Shown here in pieces: positions 16,158 to 32,314 of a stretch of DNA of 32,314 nucleotides. The notes under the pieces are model-generated. The model was given only the letters and a program-made list of their open reading frames with translations. It was not told where the DNA came from and did no database searches. The translations under genes and the position numbers were made by a program. Source of the stretch: Alphaproteobacteria bacterium (GTDB lineage: Bacteria > Pseudomonadota > Alphaproteobacteria > UBA8366); assembly GCA_030743445.1 (NCBI GenBank), contig JASLSL010000277.1, positions 1 through 32,314 of the forward strand. The letters run 5' to 3'. The number at the start of each line of letters is the position of its first letter. Position 1 is the first letter of the stretch.

Positions 16158-16697
16158 TCAGTCCACGGCGCCGATATAGGGCAAGTGGCGGTAGTCTTCG
16201 GCGTAGTCGATGCCGTAGCCGACGACGAATACGTCGTTCACCGTGAAGCCCACGAAGTCGACCGTGAAATCGATCTCCCGCCGGCTCGGCTTGTCGACCA
16301 AGGCGCAGGACCAGATCGGCCTGGCCCCGGCATCGACCAGCAGGTTCCGGGCGTAGTCGAGTGAGCGCCCGGTGTCGGCGATGTCGTCGACCAGAAGGAC
16401 CGCGCGTCCGCCGACACCCGCGGGCACGTCGCCGATCAGGGCGATGTCGCCCGCGCTTTCCCGCCCGTGGCCGTAGCTGCTGAGCCGGACGAACTCGACC
16501 GAGGGCGTCTGTCCGGTCCGGTCCAGGGCCCGGATCAGATCGGCCATGAACACGAAGCTGCCCTTCAAGACGCCGACCAGCATGAGATCGGGCGGAAGCG
16601 CACCGGCGATCTCGCCCGCAAGCTCCTCCACGCGTTGCGCGATCTCCGCCTCGTCGAAGAGTTTGGTAACGGTTGCCATGATGTTGTCGCCATCCAA
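16158..16697 (-). CDS. hpt: Hypoxanthine(-guanine) phosphoribosyltransferase
   Basis: PRPP-binding motif VLLVDDIADTGRSL; LMLVGVLKGSFVFMADLIRAL; DFVGFTVNDVFVVGYGIDYAEDYRHLPYIG. Confidence 0.95.
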   Translation of the reverse strand: MDGDNIMATVTKLFDEAEIAQRVEELAGEIAGALPPDLMLVGVLKGSFVFMADLIRALDRTGQTPSVEFVRLSSYGHGRESAGDIALIGDVPAGVGGRAVLLVDDIADTGRSLDYARNLLVDAGARPIWSCALVDKPSRREIDFTVDFVGFTVNDVFVVGYGIDYAEDYRHLPYIGAVD

Positions 16698-16811
16698 CCG
16701 GTCGATGCCGGCATATTAGCCCCGGGAACGGGCAAGCAGACTGATCTGTATCATAGCCAATCCGCCCCAAAGCGGCAGATCATAGCGCCGACGCAACAGG
16801 AAATCCGCGCC

Positions 16812-17843
16812 ATGCCGGTCCCGGCATACATCGAGCGATTGCCCAAGGCCGAGCTTCACCTCCACATCGAGGGCACGCTGGAGCCCGCAATGATGCTGGC
16901 GTTCGCCGTCCGCAACGGCGTGGATGTGCCCTATCGCACGGAAGCCGAGATCGCCGCCACCTATCGCTTTCGCAACCTTCAGGAATTCCTCGACCTCTAT
17001 TATCAGGGCAGTCGGGTGCTGATCGCCGAACGCGACTTCTATGAGCTTACCCATGCATACCTGTCCAAGGCGCGCCAACAGAATGTCCTGCATGCGGAGA
17101 TTTCCTTCGATCCGCAGTCCCACACCGGACGCGGCGTGCCGTTCGCCACGGTGATCGACGGCATCCACCAAGCGCTCCAGGACGCAAAAAGCGAGTTTGG
17201 GATCGGTACCAAGCTGATCATGTGCTTTCTCCGGCACCTCGACGCCGAGGATGCCATGACGACACTGGAAATGGCTTTGCCTTATCGCGACCGGATCGCC
17301 GCCGTCGGCTTGGATTCCTCCGAGTTTGGAAACCCGCCGGCGAAATTCGCCAAGGTCTTCGCCCGCGCCCGCGCCGAGGGATTCCTCGCGGTCGCCCACG
17401 CCGGCGAGGACGGGCCGGCCGACTACGTGCGCCAGGCCCTCGACGAGCTTCGCGTCGCCCGTATCGATCACGGCAACCGTTCGCTTGACGACAAGGCCCT
17501 GGTCCAACGCCTGGCGCGAACGCGCACGCCGCTGACCCTTTGTCCCCTGTCGAATCTGAGGCTCGGCGTGGTCCCCGACATCGGGCGCCACCCGCTGCGC
17601 GAGATGATGGCGCGCGGCCTCATGGTCACCGTCAACTCCGACGACCCGGCCTATTTCGGCGGTTACGTCAACGAGAACTACCGGGTGGTGGAGGAGGCGC
17701 TGGGCCTGAGTGAGCCAGAGCTTTACCAACTGGCCCGAAACTCGTTCGAGGCGTCGTTTCTGTCGGCACCCGAGAAACAGGCCCTGATCGCCGAGTTGGA
17801 CAACTGCGCCGGGCGTAAGTTCGCTGTTGCCCGAGCGCCGTAA
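16812..17843 (+). CDS. Adenine deaminase / adenosine deaminase family (adenine deaminase subtype favoured)
   Basis: LPKAELHLHIEGTLEP metal-binding HxH; GLDSSEFGNPPAKFAKVFARARAEGFLAVAHAGE; RIDHGNRSLDD; LCPLSNLRLG; VNSDDPAYFGGY. The SSE..NPP and SDDPAYFGGY signatures fit adenine deaminases. Confidence 0.9.
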   Translation: MPVPAYIERLPKAELHLHIEGTLEPAMMLAFAVRNGVDVPYRTEAEIAATYRFRNLQEFLDLYYQGSRVLIAERDFYELTHAYLSKARQQNVLHAEISFDPQSHTGRGVPFATVIDGIHQALQDAKSEFGIGTKLIMCFLRHLDAEDAMTTLEMALPYRDRIAAVGLDSSEFGNPPAKFAKVFARARAEGFLAVAHAGEDGPADYVRQALDELRVARIDHGNRSLDDKALVQRLARTRTPLTLCPLSNLRLGVVPDIGRHPLREMMARGLMVTVNSDDPAYFGGYVNENYRVVEEALGLSEPELYQLARNSFEASFLSAPEKQALIAELDNCAGRKFAVARAP

Positions 17844-17852
17844 CGTATTAAT

Positions 17853-17884
17853 CTTATCGTTAACCAATAATCCGAAACGATAAG
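17853..17884. promoter_or_regulatory. Inverted repeat downstream of adenine deaminase / upstream of peroxiredoxin (terminator or operator)
   Basis: CTTATCGTT-(14 nt)-AACGATAAG, perfect 9-bp arms; no U-tract. Confidence 0.4.
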
Positions 17885-17918
17885 GTTGACGGCGGCCGGG
17901 GGCCTGCGGGCGGCCGTC

Positions 17919-17934
17919 TCGGGTTCGAACCCGA
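17919..17934. promoter_or_regulatory. Perfect 16-bp palindrome upstream of peroxiredoxin
   Basis: TCGGGTTCGAACCCGA equals its own reverse complement; lies 35 bp upstream of the peroxiredoxin ATG. Confidence 0.4.
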
Positions 17935-17969
17935 TGAATCCAGACCAGGGACAAGCACAGGAGGACATT

Positions 17970-18629
17970 ATGGCACTCAGAATCAACAGCGAGGCTCCCG
18001 ACTTCTCGGCCGAGACCACCGAGGGGAACATCGACTTCCACGAATGGATCGGCGACGGCTGGGCGATCCTGTTTTCGCACCCCAAGGACTTCACCCCGGT
18101 CTGCACCACCGAGCTCGGCTACATGGCCGGGCTCAAGCCGGAGTTCGAGAAACGCAACTGCAAGATTCTCGGCCTCAGCGTCGACGGCGTCAGCGATCAC
18201 GAGAAGTGGTCCAAGGACATCGAGGAATCCCAGGGTCACGCGGTGAACTATCCGCTGGTCGGCGATCCCGAGCTGAAGGTGGTGAAGCTCTACGACATGC
18301 TGCCGGCCGATGCGGGCGATACCTCCGAGGGCCGGACCCCGGTCGACAACGCGACCGTGCGCTCGGTCTTCGTCATCGGGCCCGACAAGAAGGTCAAGGC
18401 GATGCTGACCTATCCGATGAGCACCGGGCGGAATTTCGACGAGGTTCTGCGGCTCTTGGATTCCTGCCAACTGACGGCCAATCACCAGGTCGCCACACCG
18501 GTCAACTGGAAGGACGGCGACGACGTCATCATCGTGCCCGCGGTGTCGGACGACGAGGCCAAGGAAAAGTATCCCGACGGCTGGCAGTCGCCGATGCCCT
18601 ACATCCGGATCGTCCCGCAGCCGAAGTAA
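17970..18629 (+). CDS. Peroxiredoxin, 1-Cys Prx6-like AhpC/TSA family
   Basis: FSHPKDFTPVCTTELGYMAGL; Prx6-type C-terminus VNWKDGDDVIIVPAVSDDEAKEKYPDGW; AGGAGG ribosome-binding site just upstream of ATG 17970. Confidence 0.94.
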   Translation: MALRINSEAPDFSAETTEGNIDFHEWIGDGWAILFSHPKDFTPVCTTELGYMAGLKPEFEKRNCKILGLSVDGVSDHEKWSKDIEESQGHAVNYPLVGDPELKVVKLYDMLPADAGDTSEGRTPVDNATVRSVFVIGPDKKVKAMLTYPMSTGRNFDEVLRLLDSCQLTANHQVATPVNWKDGDDVIIVPAVSDDEAKEKYPDGWQSPMPYIRIVPQPK

Positions 18630-25941: not shown

Positions 25942-26580
25942 CTAGGCCGTGTGGAGGCGGTTTTCGATCGATCGCAGGAAGGTTCGGGCGGCGGCGCGCA
26001 CGCCCTCGAACAGACCGTCGGCGATGGTCGCGGCGTCGCGGCGCAACGACGCCAGCCCTTCTGCCGTATCCGTCTCGGGCGCCCTCGGCGCCAGCGAGAA
26101 CGTGGTGCTGGGATTGTCGACCTCGGCCACGGTGACCGACACGCGCCAATCGTTCTCGATCCGGCGCTTGATGCGAAGCGCCGCGAGATGCTCCTCGACC
26201 AGGCGCGGGTAGAAAACCGTGTCGGAGTAGAACCAAACCTGCGGCGGACGCAGGATCCCGCCGGTCGAATCGAGATGGCCCTCGCACGACCAGCACGGCC
26301 GGCACACGCCGAGTGTGTGGAACGCGAAGACCAACGGCACGATTTCGGCCTCGATCGGGAAACGATCCGGATCGGAGGACATCTGGCGCGGCGCCATCGG
26401 ACACCGGGCAGAGCATTTGCAAGCACACGTGGTCGAGCCCGAGCACGAACAGCGCTCGGTGCAGCCGGGACAGGGCCGCAGCTCGGTCGGTCCAGGATGT
26501 TCCACCAGACCCAGAAGCTCGTTCCGGCAGCGGGCGCCGAATTCCGCGCTGGTATCAGGTCGCTCGATCCGCATCGTCAT
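25942..26580 (-). CDS. Cys-rich hypothetical protein (putative metal/Fe-S binding)
   Basis: 212 aa containing CPGCTERCSCSGSTTCACKCSARC and CRPCWSC; no family recognised. Confidence 0.7.
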   Translation of the reverse strand: MTMRIERPDTSAEFGARCRNELLGLVEHPGPTELRPCPGCTERCSCSGSTTCACKCSARCPMAPRQMSSDPDRFPIEAEIVPLVFAFHTLGVCRPCWSCEGHLDSTGGILRPPQVWFYSDTVFYPRLVEEHLAALRIKRRIENDWRVSVTVAEVDNPSTTFSLAPRAPETDTAEGLASLRRDAATIADGLFEGVRAAARTFLRSIENRLHTA

Positions 26581-26672
26581 GGTCCCCTACATGGCGCCGC
26601 GGGCCCGACCGAGCCATCGCGGCGCAATCATCCATGCACCGCCATGCGTAGCCGGAAACGACTAAATAACCG

Positions 26673-28055
26673 TTAACGGAGTAAGGAGATTCGGACGGCC
26701 GGCGCCGATTGCGCCAGACGGTCCAAAGCGGCGACGGCCACCGCCTGCGCTTGGCCCAAGCACGCCGCGACCGAGGGGCCGGCGAGATAGTTCCCGGTGA
26801 CGAACAGTCCGGGCAGGTTGCCCGATAGCCCTTCGAGCACGGCGGTACGGTCACCGTGCCCGTGGCGATACTGCGGCAGCCCGAGCGGCCAGTGCCGGAC
26901 GCGCGCCACGACCGGCTCGCCCTTGGCACCGATCAGGTCGGCGAACTCTTGCCGAGCGAGCTCGATCAACTCCGCCGCCGGCAGGCGGGCCAGGTGCGGC
27001 GCCCGGGCGCCGCCGAAATATCCGGCGACCGCGACACATCCCTGGGGCGCGCGGCCCGGGAACATGGTCGAACAGAACTGGGCGCCGGTCAGGCTTCGGG
27101 CCTCACCTTGCGGCACCAGGAAGCCGAGCCCGTCGAGCGGATGCGCCACCTGCTCGCGGCGATAGCCGAGGAAGGCGACCGCGAGCGGCGGCGCCGCAAT
27201 TCCGCCGGCGGCATCGGCGGCGGCTTCGTCGACGCCCTCCAACAGTCGTGCCGCGACATGGGGCTGGGTCGCGACGATCACCGAACGGGCGGCGAAGCTC
27301 CCGGCTTCGCCGGCATCGATCATAAACCCGCTGGCACTCGCTTCGATCCGGCGCACCGCAACGCCGGTGCGCACCGACTCGCCGAGCGCCCGGGTCAACG
27401 CGTTGGGCAATGTTCCGATGCCGCCCTGCCAGGAAAACAGCCGGCTGCTCGGCATTCTGGCACCCTCCAGGCGCCGGCGAAACATGCCGATCGTGATCGA
27501 GCCATAGCGGCGCTCCAACCCGACCAGCTTCGGAAACGCGGCGCCGACCGACAGCTCGTCGGCGCGGCCGGCGTAGATGCCGGCGACCAGGGGATCGATC
27601 ACCCGCTCGGTGAACTCGCGCCCGAACCGGCGGGTGCAGAACTCGGCGATCGATTCCCGGGTGTCATCGGCGCCACGCGGCACCAAGGGCTCGGCCAGCA
27701 TGCGCAACCGGGCGCCGAGGCTGAGGTAGTTCGTGGCGAGGAAGCCCATGGGATGGGCCGGTATGCCGCGGAGCCGGCCCTCGCCGACCAGGTAGCGCCG
27801 CCGCACCCCCGCGCCGAGATCGCATTTACCGGCGTCGAGCCCGAGTGCCTGGGACAGCTCGCATGCCGCCGTCGATTCGGCGGCGACGGTGCTCGGCCCG
27901 TGCTCCATCAGGAACCCGTCGATGCGCTCGGAGACGGCGTTGCCGCCGGTCCGGGCCTGGCGCTCGAGCACCAACACCCGGCGGCCCTGGCGTTGCAGCG
28001 CGTAGGCCGCGGCCAAGCCGGAGACACCGCCACCGATGATCGCGACGTCGATCAT
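26673..28055 (-). CDS. Protoporphyrinogen/coproporphyrinogen oxidase (HemY/HemG FAD type)
   Basis: MIDVAIIGGGVSGLAAAYALQRQGRRVLVLERQARTGGNAVSERIDGFLMEHGPSTV; VIDPLVAGIYAGRADELSVGAAFPKLVGLERRYGSI; C-terminal GNLPGLFVTGNYLAGPSVAACLGQA. Confidence 0.92.
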   Translation of the reverse strand: MIDVAIIGGGVSGLAAAYALQRQGRRVLVLERQARTGGNAVSERIDGFLMEHGPSTVAAESTAACELSQALGLDAGKCDLGAGVRRRYLVGEGRLRGIPAHPMGFLATNYLSLGARLRMLAEPLVPRGADDTRESIAEFCTRRFGREFTERVIDPLVAGIYAGRADELSVGAAFPKLVGLERRYGSITIGMFRRRLEGARMPSSRLFSWQGGIGTLPNALTRALGESVRTGVAVRRIEASASGFMIDAGEAGSFAARSVIVATQPHVAARLLEGVDEAAADAAGGIAAPPLAVAFLGYRREQVAHPLDGLGFLVPQGEARSLTGAQFCSTMFPGRAPQGCVAVAGYFGGARAPHLARLPAAELIELARQEFADLIGAKGEPVVARVRHWPLGLPQYRHGHGDRTAVLEGLSGNLPGLFVTGNYLAGPSVAACLGQAQAVAVAALDRLAQSAPAVRISLLR

Positions 28056-29344
28056 CCCGCGCCCTCCCCGCCCGGCCAGCGCAAGCCGAGGATGCCCGGC
28101 GGCCCTTTATCGCCGAACCGGCGCTTCGCCACCGCCTGCATATCGGTCGCGGTGACCGAGCCGCGGCCCTGCTCGGCGACGTAATCCTCGACGCTCTTGC
28201 GCACGAAGCGGCGGACGAAGGGTGGGACGTGCTTGAGCCGGGCCTCGGCGTCCTCGCTCCAAGAGAAGTTGCCGGGTCGCGCCGGCATCGGCTCGATCAC
28301 CGCGCCGCCGCCCGGTTGGTAAGCGCAAAGAAAATCCTCGCCCATCGGATTGCCGTCACGCGCCATCGGGCGCGCCCGACAGCCGCCGCAAATTTTGGTG
28401 TACTCGCAGTCGCCGCAGCGGCCCTCGAGCGTCGGCTCGCGCAGTCGGTGGAACAACGGCGACGATTGCCAGATCGTCGCGAAATCGCCCTCCCGAATCG
28501 AACCGGCCTTGGTTTCCATATAGGGACACGGCGTCACCTCGCCGGCCGGGGTGACCCGGCAGTAGCGCGTCCCCGCGAGGCAGTTACCGGCCTCGTAGCC
28601 GTGGGCCGAGGTGATCGGCCAGGCCGGGTCGAGCTCCATCGCCATGCGCTTGAAATGCGGCGCGCACTTGGCCCGGACCATGATATCCGTCTCGTCGTGT
28701 GCGGCGTGGACGACCCGGCGCAGCACATGGTCGTAAGTCTCGGCCGAGATGTTGGTGACCTTCTCGCCGCGTCCGGTGCAAACCAGGAAAAAGACGTTGA
28801 ACGCGAGCGCGCCGGCTTCGCGGGCGAAGTCGATCATGTCCTCGAGCTCGTCCGCGTTGTCGTCGGTCACCGAGAAATGGATCTGGAAGATCAGGCCGAC
28901 GCCGCGGCAGGCGTCGATCGCCGCCATGGTCCGCGCCCAGGCGCCGGGCTTGCCGCGGAACCCGTCGTGATAGGCCGGGTCCAGCGAGTCGAGGCTGATC
29001 CCGACCCCGGCGATGCCGGCCTGTTGCAGGCGGGCGACGCGCTTCTCGTCGAGCGGAGTGCCGTTGGTGCCGACGACCATCATCAAGCCGAGCCCGGCGC
29101 CGTGCCGGGCGATCGATTCGATGTCGGGGCGGAGCAACGGCTCGCCGCCGGTCAATACCACCATGGTCTCGTCGCTCAGCGCCGCGATGTCGTCGAGCAG
29201 CGCCTTCACCTCCCTCGCCGACAGTTCGTCCTCGTCGCCCGTCGACCGCGTGACGGCGTCGAGATAGCAGTGCGCGCAGGCAAGGTTGCAGCGTCGCGTC
29301 AGGTTCAGCGCGACCAGGAACGGAGGATCGACCGTCCGCGTCAT
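28052..29344 (-). CDS. Radical SAM/SPASM protein (NirJ/AhbD-like) with C-terminal PCP_red-like domain
   Basis: CNLACAHC [4Fe-4S] motif, TGGEPLLRPDI; SPASM Cys (CRVTPAGEVTPCPY, CGDCEYTKICGGCRARP...FLC); C-terminal FSWSEDAEARLKHVPPFVRRFVRKSVEDYVAEQGRGSVTATDM. ATGA overlap with the downstream HemY-type gene. Confidence 0.9.
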   Translation of the reverse strand: MTRTVDPPFLVALNLTRRCNLACAHCYLDAVTRSTGDEDELSAREVKALLDDIAALSDETMVVLTGGEPLLRPDIESIARHGAGLGLMMVVGTNGTPLDEKRVARLQQAGIAGVGISLDSLDPAYHDGFRGKPGAWARTMAAIDACRGVGLIFQIHFSVTDDNADELEDMIDFAREAGALAFNVFFLVCTGRGEKVTNISAETYDHVLRRVVHAAHDETDIMVRAKCAPHFKRMAMELDPAWPITSAHGYEAGNCLAGTRYCRVTPAGEVTPCPYMETKAGSIREGDFATIWQSSPLFHRLREPTLEGRCGDCEYTKICGGCRARPMARDGNPMGEDFLCAYQPGGGAVIEPMPARPGNFSWSEDAEARLKHVPPFVRRFVRKSVEDYVAEQGRGSVTATDMQAVAKRRFGDKGPPGILGLRWPGGEGAG

Positions 29345-29350
29345 CGGATC

Positions 29351-31012
29351 CTATTCCTCCTTCATGCCGAGCTTGTGGCCGCCCATGCGCATCGCCTCCT
29401 GCATCACGCCGCGGCCTTCCTCGATCGCTCGTTCGACGATCTCGGGCGTGACCTCCCCGGCGCCTTGCTCGGCCGCTTCGGCTTCGGCCCGGCGGCGCAC
29501 CGAGCCGCGCACCATCTCGGGTGTTCGCGAGAGCCGCGCCAATGCCGCCGCTCCCCAAACCGGGGCCGCCGCATCGGCCTCGTCGAGGAAGGCGGCGACG
29601 TGCTCGGCCAGGACTTGGCGAGCCTCGAGCCGCCGGGCGCGCTTCTCGGCGCGCAGCCGAATGCTGGCCGCGATCGACGCGTCGCCGACCCGCCGCAGCT
29701 CTTCCTCCGCTTGACTGGACCAGGTGAGCGGTTCGCCCTGCTCGTCCTGCTTGCCGCTGAAGTGCGGGCAGAATCGGTTGGTCGCCTCCTCGATCAGCGC
29801 CGAGGTAATGCAGGTGTGGCCGCTCTCCTGGGCGCAGCGGATGATCGCGAGGCGGACCATGGCGCGCGCCGTCTCGGGCACGTTCCGCAAGGTCTCCTCG
29901 GCCTCGTCGGTCCAGGTGATGGTCTCGGCCGCGACCACGTCCGTCGGCGGCGCGTAGGTCGCTTGGCTGAACCACACGTGGCACGGCGCCATGCGCAACA
30001 GGTTCTCGGCATTGCCGCCGATGTCGAGTCCGGCATCCGCATGGACGCCGGTCATGCCGATCACCAGCAGGCTGGCGTCGACCTTCTTCAGGTAGTCGGC
30101 AACCGCCTTGTAGGCCTTGCCGTCGAGCAACTCGATCGCGAGGTCATAGCCTTCCGCCGCCGCGATCTTGCGGCCGACCTCGAGATGCGATTGGTAGATC
30201 TTGGCGATGCCCTCGTCGATCAACTCCTCGTGCAGCTGCTCCTGCTCCTTGAAGCGGAACACCTTGCCGGCCTCCTCGCTCAAGACGCCGCTGATCTTGT
30301 TGAACGCGACATAGTGGTAGTAGGGATCGTAGGCGGCGACGGCGCGGACCTCCGCACCTAGGCGGCGGCCGATATCGAGCGCCGTCTTTAGCGCGCCGAA
30401 CGATTTCGACGAGCCGTCGAGCCCGACGACGATCGGCCCGTCGCCGATCGCCCGCTCGGTGCCCCGGATTACCAGCGCGTCGATCGGCGAGCGCCGAACG
30501 ACCCGCTCGCACACCGTGCCGATCAAGCTGCCCGGCACCGCGCCGAGCCCCAGCGCGCCAAGCGCCAGCACGTCGTACTCGCCGCTCGCAACGGCCTCGA
30601 CCAGGCGGGCGTAGTTCTTGCCCTCGGGACTGAGGCGCTTGTAGGGCACCGTGGCCGCGTCACACGCCGCCTGGCCGACGTCGTGGTAGCTGTCGGTGAT
30701 GATGTTGAGGCCCCGGGTGATCAGCGAGTCGTGCACGTCGCGCTGCTTTTCCATTTCCTCCTCGGCGCGATAGCGCTCGGGCAGGCCGCCCTCCATCTGG
30801 CGGAAGCGGCGGTCGTGCAGCTTGGCGGCGTAGGCATGGATACCGGTGATCGCGCCGGCGGCGCTGCCGGCGAGGCGGATCGCCTCGGCCAGCGCGCGGT
30901 CGGCGTATTCCGAGGCGTCGAGCGCCACCAGCATGCGCTTGAACGAGACCGGGGCGGTGTCGGCGCCGCGAGATGTCGTCGTGACCGCTTCGGGGGCTGG
31001 GGTGGTAGTCAT
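29351..31012 (-). CDS. Tandem universal stress protein (UspA) domains fused to three PCP_red-like repeats
   Basis: Usp1 KRMLVALDASEYADRALAEA with GALGLGAVPGSLIGT; Usp2 PIVVGLDGSSKSFGALKTA with GMTGVHADAGLDIGGN; C-terminal repeats ITWTDEAEETLRNVPETARAMVR, LTWSSQAEEELRRVGDASIAASIR, PVWGAAALARLSRTPEMVRGSVRRRAEAEAAEQGAGEVTPEIVERA. Confidence 0.88.
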   Translation of the reverse strand: MTTTPAPEAVTTTSRGADTAPVSFKRMLVALDASEYADRALAEAIRLAGSAAGAITGIHAYAAKLHDRRFRQMEGGLPERYRAEEEMEKQRDVHDSLITRGLNIITDSYHDVGQAACDAATVPYKRLSPEGKNYARLVEAVASGEYDVLALGALGLGAVPGSLIGTVCERVVRRSPIDALVIRGTERAIGDGPIVVGLDGSSKSFGALKTALDIGRRLGAEVRAVAAYDPYYHYVAFNKISGVLSEEAGKVFRFKEQEQLHEELIDEGIAKIYQSHLEVGRKIAAAEGYDLAIELLDGKAYKAVADYLKKVDASLLVIGMTGVHADAGLDIGGNAENLLRMAPCHVWFSQATYAPPTDVVAAETITWTDEAEETLRNVPETARAMVRLAIIRCAQESGHTCITSALIEEATNRFCPHFSGKQDEQGEPLTWSSQAEEELRRVGDASIAASIRLRAEKRARRLEARQVLAEHVAAFLDEADAAAPVWGAAALARLSRTPEMVRGSVRRRAEAEAAEQGAGEVTPEIVERAIEEGRGVMQEAMRMGGHKLGMKEE

Positions 31013-31033
31013 GTCGTCTCTCCCAATCGATTT

Positions 31034-31558
31034 CTAAAAGAAGGGGTGCAGCTCCATCCTGCCGCCCCTTCGGCGCGGCGAACCGTGGGTCGCGCCACCG
31101 ATCATCTTCCACTTGCCGGCTTCCTTGGTGACCCAGTGCGGCTGCGCCACCCACTGGTCGACCGTGGTGTAGTCGTCACCCTTGCGGGCGATGCCGAACA
31201 GCCCGCCGGTGCAGACCAGGATCGCGTCGCTGCCGGCGACGGTGATCTTGGTGAACACGTGCACCGAGTAGAGGTCGTCGAAGTTGGTGAAGACCTCGAG
31301 CCACATGAACTTGAGCTGCTTCTTGGTGATGCCGTGGTGCAGGTAGTCGTCCGAGTAGAAGCTCATGATCTTCTCGACGTCCTCGGACTTAAGCGCCGCC
31401 TCGATTTCCTCGTAGAACTGGCGGAACTCCTCGTTCGTCTTATCGTCCGCGTTGGTCATCCGCGGCTTCGGGAACTGGGTCTCGGCGGTCGCCGCAACGG
31501 CCCCCGCCAGCACCAGCGCCAAACCGACGGTTGCCGCTTTGAGAAATGTCAGTCGCAT
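31034..31558 (-). CDS. Secreted SnoaL/NTF2-like protein
   Basis: Signal peptide MRLTFLKAATVGLALVLAGAVAATAETQ; FRQFYEEIEAALKSEDVEKIMSFYSDDYLHHGITKKQLKFMWLEVFTNFDDL; start ATG at 31558. Confidence 0.75.
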   Translation of the reverse strand: MRLTFLKAATVGLALVLAGAVAATAETQFPKPRMTNADDKTNEEFRQFYEEIEAALKSEDVEKIMSFYSDDYLHHGITKKQLKFMWLEVFTNFDDLYSVHVFTKITVAGSDAILVCTGGLFGIARKGDDYTTVDQWVAQPHWVTKEAGKWKMIGGATHGSPRRRGGRMELHPFF

Positions 31559-31559
31559 C

Positions 31560-31772
31560 TCATCCTCCTCTCTCGGGCCGAGGATCGTTGAAGCCGTGCC
31601 GGACCGCGCCGATGCCGTAGAGCAGCAAGCCGGCGGCAATGAGCCAAAAATGAAAATCGCTCGGCGCGAAACCACCGCGCCAAGTGAGCATGCTGTCGAG
31701 CGCGCCGAGAAACACCAGCACGACGCCCATGAGCTTGATGATGAAACCTTTTTTGAGACCGTTGTTTCGCAT
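31560..31772 (-). CDS. Small membrane protein (70 aa, two TM helices)
   Basis: MRNNGLKKGFIIKLMGVVLVFLGALDSMLTWRGGFAPSDFHFWLIAAGLLLYGIGAVRHGFNDPRPERGG; tightly packed between neighbours. Confidence 0.7.
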   Translation of the reverse strand: MRNNGLKKGFIIKLMGVVLVFLGALDSMLTWRGGFAPSDFHFWLIAAGLLLYGIGAVRHGFNDPRPERGG

Positions 31773-31777
31773 CGTCA

Positions 31778-32314
31778 CTATGCCTCCCCGTCGCTCTTCT
31801 TGTTGCCGGCGCCGCGCGCCCACCAGACCTCGCCGCCGCCGAGCAGCACGACCACCACCAGCGCCGCGACCAGCGGGCCGACCCCCATCGGCGGCTCGAG
31901 CAGCAGCCAGTACCAGGTAGAGAGCGTGTGCTTGGTGCCGGTCTCGCCGTTGCTGCCGTCCCACAACGCGAAGGCAATGGGAATGAACCGGCCTTGCGCG
32001 AACTGGATGTCGGTCGAACCGTCCCCGGTCTGGAGCGCCCGGCGCATCACGACGCGCCAGGTGCCGTCCTTGTAGACGCCCTTGGCGGAAAGGCCGGCCG
32101 CGGCGGCGTCGCGCCCGTCGATCTTCTCGATCCCCGCGCCGTTGGCGAGGGTGACCGCCTCCGGTCTCTCCACGGTACCGCTTTGCCAGCGCCACAAATT
32201 GACCGGATGCGCCGCGTCTCCCATCAGGAAATAGGGCTTCTCCATGCTGTCCGGGATCGTCACCGGGAGCTTGACCGAGACGGCATCCTCGAATGGCTCG
32301 CCGCCGGCGATCTC
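31778..32314 (-). CDS. Ethylbenzene-dehydrogenase-type (EB_dh) heme-b-binding protein with C-terminal TM, N-terminus beyond window
   Basis: EPFEDAVSVKLPVTIPDSMEKPYFLMGDAAHPVNLWRWQSG...DGTWRVVMRRAL...RFIPIAFALWDGSNGETGTKHTLSTWYWLLLEPP; candidate Met (FLMGD) and Lys (GTKHTLSTWY) heme ligand motifs; TM GPLVAALVVVVLLGGGEVWWA. Confidence 0.82.
   Translation of the reverse strand, partial: EIAGGEPFEDAVSVKLPVTIPDSMEKPYFLMGDAAHPVNLWRWQSGTVERPEAVTLANGAGIEKIDGRDAAAAGLSAKGVYKDGTWRVVMRRALQTGDGSTDIQFAQGRFIPIAFALWDGSNGETGTKHTLSTWYWLLLEPPMGVGPLVAALVVVVLLGGGEVWWARGAGNKKSDGEA

Follow-up and report, generated by a model that had tools for sequence, protein, structure and literature searches.

The bd-like oxidases of Nitrospira, Nitrospina and anammox bacteria belong to a gene set that also encodes an alternative NxrC (excerpts of PMC3578206 and PMC6606698). 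The enzyme was later named the OR-N-type CydAA'; its assignment as a cytochrome c-oxidising O2 reductase is putative and awaits experimental confirmation (excerpts of PMC10839748 and PMC12342949). In low-oxygen waters, nitrite oxidisers are proposed to use OR-N/CydAA'-type enzymes as terminal oxidases, and the excerpted text of PMC10839748 records no experimental demonstration of their cofactors or function. The stretch of DNA described here, a whole contig of 32,314 nucleotides (JASLSL010000277.1, contig C277; hereafter the window), comes from a 365-contig metagenome-assembled genome (MAG; GCA_030743445.1) of an uncultured, marine-type alphaproteobacterium. The MAG is 70% complete, and the window holds the last (3') part of what appears to be a long cluster of respiratory genes. 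It carries three adjacent genes, here called the cassette, for a Usp-PCP_red protein, a radical S-adenosylmethionine (SAM) protein with a PCP_red domain (radical SAM-PCP_red) and a HemY-type oxidase. On the sequence evidence, it is somewhat probable that the three act as a dedicated heme-synthesis or heme-modification cassette for a bd-like, cytochrome c-linked oxygen reductase.

A dedicated heme cassette that strictly accompanies an oxidase would provide a direct and testable handle on which heme that oxidase uses. It would also place a radical SAM heme enzyme in one pathway with an additional HemY and a Usp-PCP_red protein; no description of such a pathway was found in the open-licence literature searched (bd oxidase, iodate and Nxr topics included).

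Conservation of the cassette and association with the bd-like subunit

The cassette genes are adjacent and in the same order (Usp-PCP_red, radical SAM-PCP_red, HemY) in nearly all of 80 loci from named genomes. The radical SAM gene directly follows the Usp gene in 67 of the 72 loci with a called next gene, and HemY follows the radical SAM gene in 58 of 61. Genes were called with a simple script that missed some radical SAM genes; these were recovered with tblastn, and several of the exceptions are such uncalled genes. Median gaps are 4.5 nt between the Usp and radical SAM genes and -4 nt between the radical SAM gene and HemY. This order is conserved well beyond chance. Conservation of the gene set that the first-pass annotation had picked out from the window alone is thereby supported.

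Hosts are mostly uncultured Alphaproteobacteria with a few Gammaproteobacteria, many of them, by their record names, from oxygen-poor or deep marine samples. The set is retained down to about 35-48% protein identity in other classes of Pseudomonadota. In distant lineages the cassette is rearranged yet stays near or with the bd-like operon: HemY lies next to or near the bd-like cluster in loci L150, L152 and L153, immediately after an EB_dh gene in L152, and all three cassette genes lie between cytochrome genes in L150. In genome G310 the pieces are on separate contigs; all are retained, and HemY adjoins the bd-like operon.

Co-occurrence was surveyed across an order (44 genomes), a class (190) and a phylum (399), about 600 Pseudomonadota genomes overall, with Usp matches below 1e-100 counted in the phylum survey. 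The cassette and the bd-like subunit were found in the identical 7 of 44 genomes of the order (Fisher 2.6e-8) and the identical 4 of 399 of the phylum (9.6e-10); in the class survey the cassette was present in 6 of 190 genomes and the subunit in 7, with an overlap of 6 (1.2e-10), all three values ignoring relatedness and linkage. Homologues without co-occurrence elsewhere, which would have spoken against the first-pass annotation, were not the outcome: in the union of the surveys, 15 of 15 cassette genomes from 12 genera encode the bd-like subunit, and only G086 encodes it without the cassette. Among genomes picked for the cassette, the subunit is present in 47 of 49. The cassette is proposed to serve the bd-like complex because this complex is its steady partner.

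Several points weigh against a dedicated link between cassette and oxidase. The surveys cover Pseudomonadota only. G086, which is 97% complete, encodes a bd-like subunit 52% identical and gave no cassette match. Conversely, G255 and G263, whose completeness is not established, carry the cassette and EB_dh genes and gave no bd-like match. EB_dh subunits are almost as constant as the bd-like subunit, so constancy does not single out the recipient of the heme. Finally, the genes lie close together on the DNA and are probably transferred jointly, as an island; given this linkage and surveys uncorrected for relatedness, co-occurrence alone is no proof of a functional link.

The respiratory cluster upstream of the cassette

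The cluster appears to continue on two other contigs of the same MAG. Contig C196 terminates within the N-terminal half of the cytochrome c-EB_dh fusion that the window continues, and encodes its first 254 residues; in homologue numbering, the C196 part covers residues 1-253 and the window part about 342-514. Joining the two contigs by sequence overlap failed: none exists, and a stretch of about 88 residues of the fusion is covered by neither contig. C196 encodes, in order, the end of a HEAT protein, a cupredoxin-like protein, a 709-residue CydA-like protein, two cytochromes c, a cytochrome c-EB_dh fusion, two further cytochromes c, a 605-residue CydA-like protein, two more cytochromes c and the interrupted EB_dh fusion. 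In total, C196 has six cytochrome c genes and two genes each for CydA-like subunits and for cytochrome c-EB_dh fusions, and it lacks CydB. The ends of C186 and C196 overlap exactly by 18 bp inside the HEAT gene, and C186 has two di-heme peroxidase genes, one represented by its end and the other complete, together with a Rieske gene and a gene for an 890-residue molybdoenzyme. Closely the same order, without the secreted-protein gene, occupies one contig in the nearly complete relative G168. We infer that C186, C196 and the window form one cluster; the link between C186 and C196 is strong, and that between C196 and the window rests on the continuity of the interrupted gene.

The first-pass annotation had suggested that a dimethyl sulfoxide (DMSO)-reductase-family complex might be encoded upstream of the window and advised looking past position 32314 for a molybdoenzyme and cytochromes c. 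Both are present on C186 and C196. The molybdoenzyme is indeed upstream in the same genome; a position directly 5' of the EB_dh gene is ruled out, that place being occupied by the bd-like oxidase with its many cytochromes c. The proposed EB_dh-type heme b protein also needs qualification: the EB_dh domain is there, and the open reading frame (ORF) encodes no more than the last third of a cytochrome c-EB_dh subunit with a membrane anchor, which in relatives has about 510 residues, with two heme c sites preceding the EB_dh domain.

The CydA-like proteins match the CydA family (PF01654, 4e-16 and 1.3e-11). They also match solved bd subunits by sequence; the similarity ends at about residue 270-296, before the Q-loop region, as judged from alignment extent. 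A bd-type fold is indicated by Foldseek, whose best matches are bd oxidase subunit I (7oy2, 2e-8), the AlphaFold model being of modest confidence (predicted local distance difference test, pLDDT, 71.5). By gene content and published descriptions, the upstream gene set appears to match the OR-N-type CydAA' clusters of Nitrospira and Nitrospina, that is, a putative cytochrome c-oxidising O2 reductase. Shared features, as given in the excerpts of PMC3578206, PMC6606698 and PMC10839748, are two CydA-like genes per cluster, the lack of CydB, mono- and di-heme cytochromes c, and a membrane-anchored alternative NxrC that combines an EB_dh domain with two heme c sites. The present clusters differ in their hosts, which are Alpha- and other Pseudomonadota, in the occasional presence of an Idr-like molybdoenzyme, and in the Usp/radical SAM/HemY cassette that follows, which goes unmentioned in the excerpted text of the same three papers.

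The molybdoenzyme of C186 is IdrA/AioA-like (TIGR02693, arsenite-oxidase family, 426 bits); arsenite oxidase is the closest characterised relative of IdrA (PMC8692401). On C186 it lies in synteny with the Rieske gene and the two di-heme peroxidase genes. Adjacent genes of these four kinds, in this genome and in many cassette loci, recall the idrABP1P2 iodate reductase cluster (PMC8692401, PMC11445184); unlike in that cluster, they occur here together with the heme cassette and with genes for HEAT, cupredoxin-like, FGE-like and bd-oxidase proteins. In many marine Alphaproteobacteria (C186/L142 1-6360, L053, L095, L117 and others), the genes after the Idr-like cluster encode HEAT-repeat, cupredoxin-like and FGE-like proteins, and the cassette comes next. 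As read from gene content, the Idr-like island with its cassette is larger than the published idrABP1P2.

The arsenite-pocket Glu of the HNRPAYNSE motif is Ser or Ala in 20 of 20 molybdoenzyme homologues, the neighbouring His and Arg being kept, and the AioA of L143 retains the Glu. This residue is presumably Glu203 in AioA numbering, and its replacement rules out an arsenite oxidase. No full-length molybdoenzyme match was obtained in G122, G096, G016 or G241, and for this reason the molybdoenzyme is considered optional and the bd-like oxidase the constant partner.

The cassette occurs in three kinds of neighbourhood. One is the bd-like/EB_dh cluster, another is the Idr-like cluster, and the third is a type II DMSO-reductase-like set, for which the alpha, beta, delta chaperone and EB_dh gamma genes were verified in L079. 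This alphaproteobacterial set lies beside the bd-like oxidase and the cassette (L079 3112-10017), and genes of like size occur in L071, L089, L102 and L107. The products (an alpha subunit of about 1185 residues, a 92-residue protein, a 424-residue beta subunit, a delta chaperone and an EB_dh gamma subunit) resemble periplasmic nitrite oxidoreductase in subunit size.

Proteins encoded by the cassette

The Usp-PCP_red protein contains PF00582 twice, that is, two Usp domains, and Foldseek matches it to the tandem Usp protein 3ab8 (2.5e-14). Pfam scores only two PCP_red stretches, but a third repeat is evident both from alignment and from the AlphaFold model. In the model (mean pLDDT 76), two Usp folds are followed by three three-helix units, in agreement with the Usp-Usp-(PCP_red)x3 architecture read in the first pass. 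PCP_red domains originate from the protochlorophyllide reductase BchB. Contact with a tetrapyrrole is suggested because PCP_red is a BchB-type domain and because the C-terminus of the radical SAM protein matches the solved domain 2kru. This C-terminal domain of BchB in DPOR is what the repeats of the Usp and radical SAM proteins have in common with that enzyme; the nitrogenase-like BchB domain is absent here, and PCP_red is instead appended to the Usp and radical SAM proteins. The Usp-PCP_red protein is proposed to be a putative tetrapyrrole carrier or scaffold.

The radical SAM protein has the CX3CX2C motif and the full SPASM motif CX20-33CX17CX36-37CX2CX5CX2CX17-35C in 39 of 39 homologues. 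In AhbD of M. barkeri, the full SPASM motif binds two auxiliary [4Fe-4S] clusters (PMC10452713), whereas the auxiliary cysteine motif of NirJ is shorter (PMC12505453). The likeness to the heme synthase AhbD thus covers CX3CX2C and the eight-cysteine SPASM motif with matching spacing; the protein differs in its score, its extra C-terminal PCP_red domain and its pairing with HemY and the Usp protein (PMC10452713). The NirJ2 and AhbD models score it equally at 312 bits, and the NirJ model TIGR04051 gives 186 bits against a curated 515. An AhbD-like mode of action is possible, but at 312 bits the protein falls short of the curated equivalog score of 500 and is not classed as AhbD. On motif and family grounds, it is proposed to be a porphyrin side-chain decarboxylase or modifier.

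HemY scores well above its family cut-off (TIGR00562, 263 bits against 98), the FAD-motif residues G8/G10/G13 being invariant. Its closest solved relative is the protoporphyrinogen oxidase of M. xanthus (2ivd, 254 bits), followed by the plant (209) and Bacillus (172) enzymes. It shares with known protoporphyrinogen/coproporphyrinogen oxidases a full-length match and a conserved FAD motif, and differs in being additional to HemJ in most hosts and fixed within the cassette. HemJ is encoded in 11 of 14 distinct cassette genomes checked, and was not found in the window's own MAG, which is incomplete. Given HemJ in those 11 genomes, HemY is unlikely to be the sole protoporphyrinogen oxidase and is probably an extra, dedicated enzyme rather than the housekeeping one. 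A ferrochelatase gene (TIGR00109, 253 bits) lies directly downstream of HemY in L079 (-10 nt). In L089 a gene with a ferrochelatase start motif occupies the same position (+23 nt), and in L100 a gene with a ferrochelatase motif lies beside the cassette on the other strand, both identified by motif only. The AhbD-type cysteine motif, HemY on top of HemJ and ferrochelatase beside the cassette in these three loci uphold the heme/tetrapyrrole link suggested at the outset.

Proposed pathway and alternative explanations

Starting from the observed gene content, gene order, co-occurrence and cysteine motifs, a pathway can be outlined. HemY would oxidise a porphyrinogen, and iron would be inserted by a ferrochelatase, the cassette-adjacent one in some loci and otherwise the housekeeping one. 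The AhbD-like enzyme would then alter propionate side chains by SAM-radical chemistry; the Usp-PCP_red protein would hold or pass on the tetrapyrrole, which would finally be inserted into the membrane complex. We infer the order of reactions, the substrate (coproheme or heme b), the carrier role and the bd-like subunit as recipient. The sequences are equally compatible with ordinary heme b as the product, with a heme that is partly decarboxylated and with a product of a new kind. More tentatively, and on the unlikely side, the cassette could make an undescribed heme (not b, c, a, o, d or d1) for the O2-reducing or electron-entry site of OR-N/CydAA'-type reductases, with Usp-PCP_red as a new kind of carrier.

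The main rival, which we consider rather unlikely, differs in the recipient: ordinary or modified heme b would be supplied to the EB_dh (NxrC- or alternative-NxrC-like) subunits, where heme b is extracytoplasmic, and not to the bd-like subunit. EB_dh genes stand immediately before the cassette in many loci, the cassette follows the type II DMSO-reductase-like set in L079, and L097 (G255) and L106 (G263) are of such context without a bd-like match. L095, L113 and similar loci of Idr context speak for the bd-like subunit instead, having no EB_dh gene in the fetched DNA while their genomes encode that subunit. To our knowledge, the ethylbenzene, dimethyl sulfide, chlorate and selenate enzymes have EB_dh-type heme b subunits without such a cassette, which also counts against EB_dh as recipient.

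An auxiliary route to ordinary heme b in a heme-hungry, low-oxygen lifestyle is likewise rather unlikely. HemY would act as a coproporphyrinogen oxidase, followed by ferrochelatase and an AhbD-like conversion of coproheme to heme b; the three enzymes would complete a coproporphyrin branch, the cluster is rich in heme c motifs and also encodes b-type sites, and the oxygen-poor marine origin of many hosts fits. Such a route sits poorly with a HemY nearer to the protoporphyrinogen oxidases than to the Bacillus enzyme and with hosts that usually keep HemJ, and a generic heme pathway is not expected to track one oxidase so tightly.

That the three genes merely share a mobile respiratory island, with no functional tie to the oxidase, is improbable: although distribution is patchy across distant genera and the neighbours vary, the set is kept in other classes at the low identities given above, and in G310, where the pieces lie on separate contigs, none has been lost and HemY is next to the bd-like operon. 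Heme d1 or a d1-like heme made by a NirJ-type enzyme, to which the tie between the NirJ2 and AhbD models might point, is very improbable, as both scores miss the cut-off, the full AhbD motif is universal among the homologues in place of the shorter NirJ motif (PMC12505453), a strong cytochrome cd1 (NirS) match occurs in only 7 of the 14 distinct cassette genomes checked, and the neighbourhoods of the cassette showed no further nir genes. The preferred reading remains a cassette dedicated to the bd-like oxygen reductase.

Gene layout and accessory genes

Six minus-strand genes are present at the coordinates in Table 1, the first truncated by the contig end. Intergenic spacing is 5, 1, 21, 6 and -4 nt, with ATGA at the last junction; re-checking reproduced all six genes and every gap of the first-pass annotation exactly. 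Scans for terminators and promoters returned nothing above chance.

Table 1. Features at the end of the window, in transcription order.
Feature	Coordinates	Strand	Remarks
Cytochrome c-EB_dh fusion, C-terminal third (alternative-NxrC-like subunit); 5'-open	31778..32314	-	PF09459 3e-14; TIGR03477 85 bits, below cut-off
Small membrane protein, 70 aa	31560..31772	-	45-58% identical homologues at same position
Secreted accessory protein, 174 aa	31034..31558	-	Position common to L068 and L072 only
Tandem Usp with three C-terminal PCP_red repeats	29351..31012	-	PF00582, PF08369; homologues in 80 named loci
AhbD/NirJ2-like radical SAM-SPASM enzyme, C-terminal PCP_red	28052..29344	-	Pfam Radical_SAM, SPASM and PCP_red; AhbD 8-Cys SPASM motif
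HemY-type FAD porphyrinogen oxidase	26673..28055	-	Pfam amino-oxidase/HemY; TIGR00562, above cut-off
Cys-rich ORF	25942-26580		92 bp past HemY; no family match

The small membrane protein, which has no Pfam family match, sits between the EB_dh and Usp genes in many loci. The secreted protein had been called SnoaL-like, a label that finds no Pfam or NCBIfam match. Only three genomes, that of the window and those with L068 (9441-9959) and L072 (9389-9886), have a gene for a secreted protein of about 174 residues inserted after the small membrane protein gene and before the Usp gene. The Cys-rich ORF, earlier taken to follow the operon, is ruled out as a seventh member, its homologues being absent from every related locus.

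Distant Usp proteins of about 700-820 residues, 31-32% identical, occur in another genus of Pseudomonadota (L154 and L155; G380 and G438) without a bd-like subunit match, and one of the two genes lies near a multi-heme EB_dh protein. In the pair L125 and L127, the locus of a record labelled Dehalococcoidia has almost the same gene order as a gammaproteobacterial Acidiferrobacteraceae locus, and the record may be a binning error. Elsewhere in the window, two long ORFs overlap on opposite strands, 16467-17843 (+) and 16716-18485 (-). The plus-strand ORF matches the adenosine deaminase family; the minus-strand ORF (589 residues) has no family and is, since only its overlapping partner has one, probably spurious.

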